In this document: positions 32,028 to 36,040 of the stretch, one piece after another
Position numbering within the stretch: the stretch's first letter is position 1
How the letters are laid out: each line of letters starts with the position of its first letter
IMG/VR virus record: IMGVR_UViG_3300044765_000010
Coordinates: 1-36,842 of that record
DNA: 36,842 nt
Source: a virus
Reading direction: 5' to 3' (one strand)
Made by a program: the position numbers and the translations under genes
Notes under the pieces: generated by a model
The model's database searches: none
Told to the model about the DNA's origin: nothing
What the model saw: the letters and a program-made list of their open reading frames with translations, nothing else

Positions 32028-32474
32028 CTATCGTCCTTCTCTCTGAATAGCTGCGAGAAGTTCATCAAGTTCTTGAAGACTTGGATTTTTCAGGATGATT
32101 GCTCTAGCAATTTTCCCAATGGCAAAAAGCTGTTTACCCATACCTGGGGTAATATATTCACCAGACCATCCTGCAAGAAGTGCTGTAGCTTCTGAAATGC
32201 AGAAAGGACCATCCGCATTCAACCGTGCGATCAGATCATCATGATCTTCTTTGCTCACATGCCAGCAGGAATGACAGCATTCGCATAGAGCAACGAGATC
32301 GTCGTTTTTATACTCCCAAGGATTAGCATTTTTCTTATAGATCTTGTGATGTACATGCAGCATATCTTCACCATTGCCACAGCACTCACAAACCCATTTA
32401 GCACGCTCAAGAATTTCCAAGCGCTTCTTCTGCCATTGTGGCTTCTTTAGAAGCTCGTAATAGTTGCTTTTCAT
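32028..32474 (-). CDS. HNH endonuclease
   Basis: Encodes 148 residues from the ATG at 32474. WVCECCGNGEDMLHVHHKIYKKNANPWEYKNDDLVALCECCH is a complete HNH/zinc motif (two CxxC pairs, HH and the final His region). Length and position, just after a strong terminator-like hairpin and before the O-like gene, allow either a free-standing homing nuclease or a phage DNA-processing enzyme. GGGGATACACA precedes the start. The helical C terminus is unfamiliar. Confidence 0.8.
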   Translation of the reverse strand: MKSNYYELLKKPQWQKKRLEILERAKWVCECCGNGEDMLHVHHKIYKKNANPWEYKNDDLVALCECCHSCWHVSKEDHDDLIARLNADGPFCISEATALLAGWSGEYITPGMGKQLFAIGKIARAIILKNPSLQELDELLAAIQREGR

Positions 32475-32496
32475 TGTGTATCCCCAGAACGCAAAA

Positions 32497-32581
32497 AGCC
32501 CCAAGATTTGTCGCCGGATGGCGTTGCAATCAAGAAGAAAGCGGCATCTTCTATCATGCGCCAGCGACAAATCTTGGGGCT
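32497..32581 (-). terminator. Long hairpin with T tract upstream of the HNH gene
   Basis: AGCCCCAAGATTTGTCGC (32497-32514) and its exact reverse complement (32564-32581) form an 18-bp perfect stem. The 49-nt loop holds further short pairings (TGGCG/CGCCA and AGAAG/CTTCT). On the minus strand the stem is followed by TTTTTGCG, so it looks like a terminator or attenuator just before the HNH start, only 22 nt away. A small inserted element with terminal inverted repeats is an alternative. Confidence 0.7.
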
Positions 32582-32890: not shown

Positions 32891-33053
32891 CTTCCTCGCT
32901 GATCTGCATGAGAAGACTCTTCAACTCGGCGCGTGCTTCGTCCTTGTAGTTGTACCCATCATCGTCAATCCTCATGGATTTAAAAATTTCCCGCACCCAA
33001 TCCTCAATAGCGTCAAGCATCACATCGAGTTTCTGTTCGTCCTTGGCGTTCAT
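32871..33053 (-). CDS. Small acidic protein
   Basis: Encodes 60 residues, strongly acidic, ending ISEEDGDDGN, with a helical first half (KDEQKLDVMLDAIEDWVREIFKSM). Start and previous stop overlap by ATGA. Small acidic early phage proteins can be DNA mimics or inhibitors, but nothing specific supports that here. Confidence 0.6.
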   Translation of the reverse strand: MNAKDEQKLDVMLDAIEDWVREIFKSMRIDDDGYNYKDEARAELKSLLMQISEEDGDDGN

Positions 33054-33253
33054 TCGTATCCTCCTTCTTCGATGATATCCGCCAGCTCGCTTGCTGCCCG
33101 GATAGTTAGATAGTCTCCCTCAAGATCGCGCAACCACTCAACGATGGCCGCACGCTCATCAGCCGTGCCCTTGTCGTAGCCTTGCTGCCACTCCTTATCT
33201 AGCACTTCGCGCAAATCATCGCGCATATCGTCTTCGTCGGCGTATTGTTTCAT
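33050..33253 (-). CDS. Small acidic protein
   Basis: Encodes 67 residues, acidic and helical (DEDDMRDDLREVLDKEWQQGYDKGTADERAAIVEWLRDLEGDYLTIRAASELADIIEEGGYE). Its start overlaps by ATGA the stop of the alternative-frame protein at 33250-34074. GGAGGATGAAGC before its ATG is a strong ribosome-binding site. No known family. Confidence 0.65.
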   Translation of the reverse strand: MKQYADEDDMRDDLREVLDKEWQQGYDKGTADERAAIVEWLRDLEGDYLTIRAASELADIIEEGGYE

Positions 33254-34074
33254 GCTTCATCCTCCAGAAAGTAATTTGAATGCTGTAGCTGCCACTCCTG
33301 GAACCTGTCCATTTCCAAGGGCTTTAATTCGGTCCACCCGAGCGGCCACCCCATCAGCCACTCGACCCACGTTGGGTTCAGTTGTCCACCATCTGAAGCC
33401 ATAACGGCATGGTCCAAGCGGTCGTTCTGCCGGCTCTTGCCGTTCTTGCGCGTAAGAGCTCCAATGGATGATCCTTTGCTCGCGCTCGCGCTCGCGGTTG
33501 GAGTTGGATATTTTCGTACTGCTGTTGCCAAACCGTCTCCGCTGTATTTGCTTGCTCCCTTCCTGTTGTAATTCCCGCAAACTGTTATTGTTGGCCACAA
33601 GCCAGATACGGTCACGTTCATGGGGCGCTCCGCAGTCGGATGCTGAAATACATGCCCATTGCGCGTCATACCCCAGCGCGGCAAGGTCACCAATGACCAT
33701 GGCAAGTCCTCGTCCCACAAGCAGAGGTGAGTTCTCCACGAAGACGAAGCGGGGTCGAACTTCACCGATAATTCGTGCCATTTCTCTCCAGAGACCGGAG
33801 CGTTCGCCATCAATACCGGCGCCGTTACCGGCTGCACTGATGTCCTGGCATGGGAACCCTCCAGAAACCACATCAATAAGCCCTCTCCAAGGTCTTCCGT
33901 CAAAGGTCCGAACGTCATCCCAAATCGGGAAGGGCGGGAGAATGCCGTCATTCTGTCTGGCGGCAAGAACGCTTGCGGCGTATGGCTCCCATTCAACAGC
34001 GCAGACTGTGCGCCAGCCGAGCAGGTGGCCGCCGAGTATTCCTCCACCAGCACCCGCGAAAAGAGCCAGCTCAT
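33250..34074 (-). CDS. Alternative-frame protein fully overlapping the methyltransferase
   Basis: Encodes 274 residues in a frame shifted by one relative to the Dcm gene, over its entire length. The N terminus MSWLFSRVLVEEY, the middle SRFGMTFGPL and SGLWPTITVCGNYN, and the C terminus LNPTWVEWLMGWPLGWTELKPLEMDRF match a phage protein type I recognise from other phages, usually unnamed. AGGAG lies 5 nt before its ATG, a better site than for the Dcm start four bases upstream. Its ATG overlaps the stop of the upstream 44-codon gene (ATGA), and its stop overlaps the next ATG, exactly as neighbouring genes do. The function is unknown. Confidence 0.6.
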   Translation of the reverse strand: MSWLFSRVLVEEYSAATCSAGAQSALLNGSHTPQAFLPPDRMTAFSRPSRFGMTFGPLTEDLGEGLLMWFLEGSHARTSVQPVTAPVLMANAPVSGEKWHELSVKFDPASSSWRTHLCLWDEDLPWSLVTLPRWGMTRNGHVFQHPTAERPMNVTVSGLWPTITVCGNYNRKGASKYSGDGLATAVRKYPTPTASASASKGSSIGALTRKNGKSRQNDRLDHAVMASDGGQLNPTWVEWLMGWPLGWTELKPLEMDRFQEWQLQHSNYFLEDEA

Positions 34075-34078
34075 TCAT
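33257..34078 (-). CDS. dcm: DNA cytosine-5 methyltransferase
   Basis: Encodes 273 residues. Motif I is LFAGAGGG (6-13), motif IV GGFPCQDIS with catalytic Cys77, motif VI ENS (115-117), motif VIII GAPHERDRIW (150-159), and the C-terminal TEPNVGRVADGVAARVDRIKALGNGQVP carries motifs IX-X. The target-recognition region (about 165-235) is short. The enzyme would methylate cytosine in phage DNA, perhaps to avoid host restriction. I start at the ATG at 34078, with GGAAG 8 nt upstream; a longer frame to 34126 lacks support. No partner restriction gene is seen. The entire gene is overprinted by the frame at 33250-34074. Confidence 0.88.
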   Translation of the reverse strand: MNELALFAGAGGGILGGHLLGWRTVCAVEWEPYAASVLAARQNDGILPPFPIWDDVRTFDGRPWRGLIDVVSGGFPCQDISAAGNGAGIDGERSGLWREMARIIGEVRPRFVFVENSPLLVGRGLAMVIGDLAALGYDAQWACISASDCGAPHERDRIWLVANNNSLRELQQEGSKQIQRRRFGNSSTKISNSNREREREQRIIHWSSYAQERQEPAERPLGPCRYGFRWWTTEPNVGRVADGVAARVDRIKALGNGQVPGVAATAFKLLSGG

Positions 34079-34205
34079 ACTCCTGTTCTTCCTTCTCCTC
34101 AGCCTGCTCCAGCAGCCGAAGGACATACGTGCGCCAGATTAGCGCGGCTTGTAGTGCCAGGCTCTGGTCTGTGTAGACCTCAGAGCTTTCACATGTGGTT
34201 TCCAT
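34071..34205 (-). CDS. 44-residue protein
   Basis: METTCESSEVYTDQSLALQA then ALIWRTYVLRLLEQAEEKEE and QEYE. Helical with an acidic end. AGGAAAGGAATAACA precedes the start, and its TGA overlaps the ATG at 34074. It overlaps the Dcm start by 8 bp. The function is unknown. Confidence 0.6.
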   Translation of the reverse strand: METTCESSEVYTDQSLALQAALIWRTYVLRLLEQAEEKEEQEYE

Positions 34206-34635: not shown

Positions 34636-35421
34636 ATGAGCACCGCACTTGTATCGCTTACTAATAAGCTAGCCAGCCGTTTCGATATGGGAGACGGCAC
34701 GGAGCTGATAGCCACGCTCAAGGCGACGGCATTCAAAGGCCAAGTCTCCGATGCGCAGATGACCGCGCTTCTGATTGTGGCGAACCAGTACGGACTAAAC
34801 CCTTGGACCAAGGAAATCTATGCCTTCCCAGACAAGAACAATGGGATCGTGCCAGTGGTCGGCGTGGACGGCTGGAGTCGCATCATCAACGAGCATCCGC
34901 AATTGGATGGGATAGAGTTCGAATACGGGCCGGCCACCGAGGACGGCAAGCATCACGAATGGATCGAATGCCTGATCTACCGTAAAGACCGAAGTCGCCC
35001 CATTCGTGCCCGCGAATTCTGGAGTGAGGTCTATCGCCCAAATACTGGACCGTGGCAGTCGCACGGCAACCGTATGCATCGCCACAAGTCGCTGATTCAG
35101 TGTTCACGCTTGGCCTTTGGATTCGCTGGAATCTATGACCAAGATGAGGCAGAGCGTATTGTGCAGAGTGTGAATGATGCGCAGAAATCAGCGGCTGCTT
35201 ATGCGGAGCGTGCCAGGGTAGAGGGTTCGAATAGCGAAGAGGCACAAAGCCTGATTGCCGATCTTGAAGTTCTTGCAAAAGATGGTGATTGGCCTGGGCT
35301 TGGGAAGACATGGCAATCCATGAGCGATGCACAGAAAACCATGGTCGGGTCGGTCGAGTTCGCACGGCTGAAAGAGCTTTGCAAAGCCAACATGCAAAAT
35401 CTGGAGTCTAGCGATGATTGA
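34636..35421 (+). CDS. bet: Bet/RecT-type single-strand annealing protein
   Basis: Encodes 261 residues, the same length as lambda Bet. Motifs include QMTALLIVANQYGLNPWTKEIYAFP, GIVPVVGVDGWSRIINEHP, DRSRPIRAREFWSEVYR, and HRHKSLIQCSRLAFGFAGIYDQDEAERI. The protein anneals complementary single strands during phage recombination and acts with the exonuclease encoded next. A GGAAAGGAAATC site precedes the ATG. It is the first gene of the rightward unit. Confidence 0.92.
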   Translation: MSTALVSLTNKLASRFDMGDGTELIATLKATAFKGQVSDAQMTALLIVANQYGLNPWTKEIYAFPDKNNGIVPVVGVDGWSRIINEHPQLDGIEFEYGPATEDGKHHEWIECLIYRKDRSRPIRAREFWSEVYRPNTGPWQSHGNRMHRHKSLIQCSRLAFGFAGIYDQDEAERIVQSVNDAQKSAAAYAERARVEGSNSEEAQSLIADLEVLAKDGDWPGLGKTWQSMSDAQKTMVGSVEFARLKELCKANMQNLESSDD

Positions 35422-36040
35422 GCAGCGTACAGATGCATGGCATCAGCAGCGCGCAGGTAAGATCACAGCTAGTCGATTTTCTGACGCTATTGCAATGAAC
35501 AAGCGGCAGCCGGACAAGCCAACCGAAGCACGTAATACCTACCTGCGCGAGCTAGTGGCGGAAATTCTCTCCGGCGAGCCTAAGCCGGAAATAAATAGCT
35601 CATCGTTGCAGTGGGGGAAGGATGTAGAGCAGTACGCCCGCGAGGCCTACGAGTTCAAGACCGGAAACTTGGTTATGGAGTCGGAGTTTGTCATACATAC
35701 CATGCATGATTTCATCGGATGCAGTCCTGACGGTTTGATTGGCCTTTATGGCGGCATGGAGATGAAGTGCCCGAAAGACCCTCAAGTTCACATCAAGACA
35801 TTGATCGATGGCATGCCAGACGATCACATCGATCAAGTACAAGGATGCATGTTCGTCACTGGACGCCAGTGGTGGGACTTCATTAGCTATGATCCGCGCC
35901 AAGCTGAACCGTATCGCCTATACACCCAGCGCATCGAACGCGATGAAGCCTATATCAACCGCGTGCTAGAACCCGGCTTGCTGTCGTTCTGGAGCGATGT
36001 ACAGGCTGTACTTGCAAAACTCAGGGAGCGCGTAGCATGA
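35414..36040 (+). CDS. YqaJ-family (lambda Exo-like) exonuclease
   Basis: Encodes 208 residues (lambda Exo has 226). RTDAWHQQRAGKITASRF is the YqaJ start; catalytic acidic residues lie in GCSPDGLIG and in GGMEMKCPK (ExK), with DHIDQVQGCMFVTGRQWWDFISYDP as the usual QxxxxM/L region. It resects DNA 5' to 3' to give Bet its substrate. It overlaps the Bet gene by 8 bp. Together they form a Red-like pair; no Gam-like gene is seen. Confidence 0.92.
   Translation: MIEQRTDAWHQQRAGKITASRFSDAIAMNKRQPDKPTEARNTYLRELVAEILSGEPKPEINSSSLQWGKDVEQYAREAYEFKTGNLVMESEFVIHTMHDFIGCSPDGLIGLYGGMEMKCPKDPQVHIKTLIDGMPDDHIDQVQGCMFVTGRQWWDFISYDPRQAEPYRLYTQRIERDEAYINRVLEPGLLSFWSDVQAVLAKLRERVA

Follow-up and report, generated by a model that had tools for sequence, protein, structure and literature searches.

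Superimposed reading frames of a phage locus probably encode the two subunits of one C5-cytosine DNA methyltransferase

Described split methyltransferases and the layout of the locus

C5-cytosine methyltransferases made of two polypeptides are an established class that includes M.EcoHK31I and M.AquI, and the two genes of M.EcoHK31I overlap in different frames. M.EcoHK31I (YGGCCR) carries motifs I-VIII and X on its large subunit and motif IX alone on its small subunit, with the target-recognition region predicted in the large subunit (PMC3404938). M.AquI has its catalytic motifs on one chain, and the distal variable region and motif IX on another (PMC3404938).

The window that we analysed comprises positions 1 to 36,842 of virus record IMGVR_UViG_3300044765_000010 (36,842 nucleotides), and we consider it very probable, from comparisons of sequences, that one of its loci encodes a single heterodimeric C5-cytosine DNA methyltransferase whose alpha and beta subunits are read from superimposed frames. 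Similar to M.EcoHK31I, motifs I-VIII and X would lie on one chain (alpha) and motif IX on the other (beta), but the target-recognition region, predicted on the large subunit there, is placed here on beta by selection and by homology, and the overlap, compared by description, is almost total here, with starts 4 nt apart. Because the target-recognition region is not on alpha, the pair would work like M.EcoHK31I without being a strict member of that type. M.AquI is similar to the pair in having a catalytic chain and a separate chain with the variable region and motif IX, but its small subunit carries motif X together with motif IX, whereas motif X in the window is on alpha. Actinophage pairs such as that of the Gordonia phage Upyo (L170) have motif X on beta, and the Upyo pair has the M.AquI arrangement. 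Two phage proteins, RitaG gp71 (Mycobacterium phage) and Spartoi gp40 (Rothia phage), share the domain order of the pair (motifs I-VIII, LPTP-type repeats, EWMMGxPxGW as motif IX and GNGV as motif X) but hold everything in a single reading frame. The families PHROG 363, which matches alpha, and PHROG 1008, which matches beta, are both labelled DNA methyltransferase and are catalogued as separate families. We found no description of the phage alpha/beta overlap in the open-access papers that we searched; what is new here is the near-total overlap, target recognition on beta, the phage-wide spread and the frame-switching selection. The out-of-frame HNH of ShiLan (PMC11855218) is a different phenomenon. 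The features of the locus are as follows.

33257..34078, minus strand: alpha, the Dcm frame, of 273 aa; C5-methyltransferase motifs I-VIII, followed by a middle under weak constraint and by motif X
33250..34074, minus strand: beta, the second frame, of 274 aa, shifted by +1 from alpha; predicted target-recognition region and motif IX
34080..34084, minus strand: AGGAG, Shine-Dalgarno-like, common to alpha and beta; alpha ATG 1 nt away, beta ATG 5 nt away
33590..34078, minus strand: segment under mainly alpha selection by fourfold third-site divergence; codons 1-163, motifs I-VIII
33385..33603, minus strand: segment under mainly beta selection by fourfold divergence; variable target-recognition region with WPT/PTPTA repeats
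33331..33384, minus strand: beta motif IX, QLNPTWVEWLMGWPLGWT, located by hhalign to single-chain methyltransferases
33299..33328, minus strand: alpha motif X, IKALGNGQVP, immediately past beta motif IX on the DNA, located by hhalign
34071..34205, minus strand: upstream 44-aa ORF; its stop overlaps the beta start as ATGA, and it overlaps alpha by 8 nt
33050..33253, minus strand: downstream 67-aa ORF; its start overlaps the beta stop as ATGA

The two full-length frames start 4 nt apart, at ATGAATGAG, and end 7 nt apart, exactly as the original prediction had described them, and the ATGA overlaps of the second frame with both neighbouring genes are likewise as it reported.

Division of the enzyme between alpha and beta

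The match of alpha to PF00145 (E 1.1e-34) covers residues 4-189 and stops at about motif VIII, and the match of the alpha profile to M.HhaI is similarly limited, to residues 15-179. Motifs I, IV (PCQ), VI (ENV/ENS) and VIII are present in alpha, motif X is also found there (hhalign probability 93% against single-chain methyltransferases), and the target-recognition region and motif IX are absent. The original prediction had assigned motif IX as well to the Dcm frame; by profile comparison its other motif assignments hold, and motif IX is located in the second frame (hhalign probability 97.6%, E 3e-12 against single-chain methyltransferases). Profile comparison aligns alpha with the first part of single-chain phage methyltransferases at a probability of 100%, and beta with their LPTP region at 97% (E 7.5e-11), so that beta's target-recognition region is assigned by homology to these single-chain relatives. 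All parts of a complete PF00145 enzyme are therefore present across the pair, with motifs I-VIII and X in alpha and the target-recognition region and motif IX in beta.

Beta has no match to Pfam or NCBIfam models, and it matches PHROG 1008 ('DNA methyltransferase') with an E of 7.3e-19; this family spans the beta proteins of several phages and, in RitaG gp71, the C-terminal half of the protein (E 6e-65). This homology identifies the C-terminal half of beta as that part of one and the same C5-methyltransferase which holds the target-recognition region and motif IX, and it gives no support to the separate phage protein first proposed. The structural searches of beta gave no assignment: its profile matched nothing in the PDB, the AlphaFold model of beta alone (pLDDT 56.5) had no PDB match, and with a joined alpha and beta profile (A4) the PDB match still ended at motif VIII. 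The poor predicted fold of beta alone could be explained by its being an obligate subunit. For a single-chain relative, the AlphaFold model (pLDDT 77.6, pTM 0.79) gave a full-length match to M.HhaI (E 3.5e-15), and the motif IX-X segment of the single-chain profile aligned to HhaI 273-308 with an insignificant score. That no structure could be assigned to beta, and that its first half, which contains neither the target-recognition region nor motif IX, also has conserved segments, would agree with a beta protein that is made but serves some other function, for example as an inhibitor or partner, unrelated to DNA recognition by the methyltransferase. We regard this as very unlikely, because single-chain methyltransferases have a C-terminal part homologous to the conserved C-terminal half of beta and because alpha lacks exactly that target-recognition/motif IX part.

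Openness of the second frame and selection that changes frame

To assess whether beta is kept open beyond chance, we collected 80 loci from IMG/VR with a beta query and 80 with alpha alone. Conservation of beta in the beta-query loci is partly due to the selection of hits, and the 80 alpha-query loci are free of this bias. The expected number of stops was obtained from synonymous codon shuffles that preserve the alpha (Dcm) protein. Counted across related sequences, with no explicit phylogeny model, the beta frame contains 2 in-frame stops against 503 expected in the non-redundant set (108 genes, <90% identical). The beta stop in L006 is the product of a long alpha read-through and no real break, and L150, with a beta stop and an intact alpha, is the one true exception; among the 80 alpha-query loci beta is broken in this one only, and the +4 start geometry is near-universal in the others. 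The third frame shows no such depletion (1019 stops observed against 741 expected in its first half), and in relatives there are about 17 stops per gene in the +2 frame and on average about 4.5-9 in each of the reverse frames, on which ground the antisense ORF at 33468-34142 (plus strand) was dismissed.

The selection acting on the DNA also changes frame along the gene. Four parts of the gene were compared by fourfold third-site divergence, likewise counted over related genes without an explicit phylogeny model: the first part, the middle, the surroundings of motif IX and the tail. In this order the alpha frame gives 0.51, 0.15, 0.10 and 0.41, and the beta frame 0.29, 0.51, 0.44 and 0.39. This crossing over of divergence between frames points to selection on alpha at first, on beta through the target-recognition region and motif IX, and on alpha once more at the end, and variation by codon position agrees with it. 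Judged by these estimates, the constraint falls on alpha over codons 1-160, on beta over the next segment, and again on alpha over the last ~20 codons. Amino-acid conservation of alpha is lost between motifs VIII and X, where it has no consensus. Divergence also dips locally over alpha codons 1-10, 41-50 and 131-140, a sign that beta may matter in parts of its first half as well. In single-chain relatives, third positions are the most variable through the C-terminal part, bar one short stretch further upstream. This stretch lies ~53-93 codons past motif IV in a group of single-chain mycobacteriophage methyltransferases (L381/L384), in which one bin varies more at position 1 than at position 3 (0.218 vs 0.112), as could be seen if another frame were selected there, alignment effects being possible as well; it could relate to the known out-of-frame insertions in these methylases (PMC11855218).

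Similar signs of selection are found at the starts. The beta ATG is retained in 104 of the 108 genes, and Asn codon 2 of alpha, with which the beta start partly coincides, reads AAT in 101/101 cases, as against 109/297 (37%) of the other Asn codons in the first half. A purine block precedes alpha by ~4 nt and beta by ~8 nt across relatives, and in E. coli both frames can be translated at closely spaced starts from one site (PMC9841429).

The original prediction had allowed that the second frame might be a gene-calling echo of conserved Dcm codons; such a frame would be held open by their codon bias without useful translation. The first half of beta does partly mirror such codons, for example with SSSWRT opposite motif VI, but the synonymous shuffles, the AAT bias at the start and the frame-switching selection all speak against this reading, as does the loss of amino-acid conservation in the Dcm frame between motifs VIII and X. 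By these measures the second frame is not an echo of Dcm codons, and we give that explanation almost no credence. The stops and the codon constraint in each frame had been proposed as the check; stops are almost absent from beta and the constraint is strong, which favours two proteins from one region, as had been claimed, with one ribosome-binding site probably feeding both. Programmed ribosomal frameshifting would instead yield one chain (motifs I-VIII, the target-recognition region with motif IX, then motif X), and the functional segments do alternate between frames 0, +1 and 0 in the order of the single-chain enzyme. This would require two shifts, +1 and back, and it predicts openness neither of beta upstream of the shift nor of alpha downstream of it, and yet both are open: beta codons 2-160 contain 0 stops against 250 expected, and the alpha frame of the beta-selected segment contains 0 against 318 expected in shuffles that preserve the beta protein. 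The beta ATG is also conserved more than alpha requires, and we consider frameshifting very unlikely.

Under the preferred reading of two subunits, one Shine-Dalgarno site would recruit the ribosomes for both proteins. Some would initiate at the ATG/GTG of alpha and others at the ATG of beta, which lies 4 nt further downstream, and the two products, equally long, would assemble into a C5-methyltransferase. Alpha would bind AdoMet and provide the catalytic Cys (PCQ), motifs I-VIII and, at its C-terminus, motif X, and beta would recognise DNA through its target-recognition region and supply motif IX. Where one protein overlaps the core of its partner, it would be a passenger under loose constraint, apart from some conserved segments that beta has in its first half. 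Several observations count against two subunits: the poor AlphaFold model of beta alone, the beta stop in L150, the placing of the alpha ATG just 1 nt from AGGAG, and the lack of an alpha start codon at the usual place in 17/107 relatives, in which alpha must therefore begin upstream. We infer that both frames are translated and that their products form an active dimer with a protective role.

Spread, related forms and probable role

Among 379 loci drawn from viral contigs, bacterial genomes, and phage and plasmid records, 377 carry the +1 pair, which bears out the original prediction that the overprint may be general. Among the records are prophages or contigs of Pseudomonadota, Verrucomicrobiota, Planctomycetota, Nitrospirota, Spirochaetota and Acidobacteriota, as well as phages of Mycobacterium, Gordonia, Lacticaseibacillus and Microcystis. 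Classing by the position of the motifs gives 347 two-frame (+1) pairs and 48 single-chain loci; beta opens within ~5 codons of the alpha start in most pairs, and the remainder overlap partly. A series from single-chain through split to fully overlapped forms is plausible from these arrangements. The pair is collinear with the single-chain relatives, which suggests that it originated from an ordinary one-frame gene. The frame would have changed by +1 past motif VIII and reverted ahead of motif X, and both frames would then have stayed open. It is likely that a whole lineage of phage C5-methyltransferases is built in this way, as two superimposed full-length subunit genes behind one ribosome-binding site. 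If so, the choice of start codon would set the subunit ratio and the co-localisation of the subunits, and catalysis and recognition would evolve in different frames of the same DNA. Near-complete overlap of two functional proteins on the same strand, with selection that changes frame, is rare and usually hard to prove, and here hundreds of sequences support it, the relatives with a single chain or a partial overlap serving as natural stages.

Many annotations of phage 'DNA cytosine methyltransferase' would then describe half an enzyme. Public records are at variance on the pair: only alpha is annotated in Acinetobacter phage ABMM1 and in E. coli (PGAP), and only beta, as 'hypothetical', in Pseudomonas phage phPA-G. 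The annotated frame expressed alone should fail, target specificity being expected in the unannotated frame, and the copies in E. coli prophages and in laboratory phages make the system directly testable.

We recognised no restriction enzyme among the adjacent ORFs examined, and genes for RecT (E 1.4e-24) and a YqaJ-type exonuclease (E 1.3e-26) lie near the locus, at 34636-36040 of the window (plus strand). Both observations fit an orphan protective methyltransferase, and the likely role of the enzyme would be to shield phage DNA from host restriction. The RecT/YqaJ recombination pair is divergent from the methyltransferase operon. A small protein encoded at 32028-32570 of the window (minus strand) shows Cys/His spacing, and its match to HNH is sub-threshold (E 0.017).

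Some copies carry a broken frame. Two phage sequences that are ~99% alike (L397 and L384) differ in that one is single-chain and the other is broken or split soon past motif IV, and either a mutation or an error in sequencing may explain this difference in frame. The copy on the Leptospira interrogans plasmid pLiSL34 (L380, 947-1624), publicly annotated as DNA cytosine methyltransferase, was considered as a natural single-chain fusion and dismissed as a degraded overlapping copy; its beta is broken within motif IX, the tail of beta running on in the alpha frame. In the E. coli PCP07014 prophage (L466, 1501-2262), alpha and beta have stops at the same place, both frames are otherwise conserved, and alpha is flagged as a pseudogene by PGAP.
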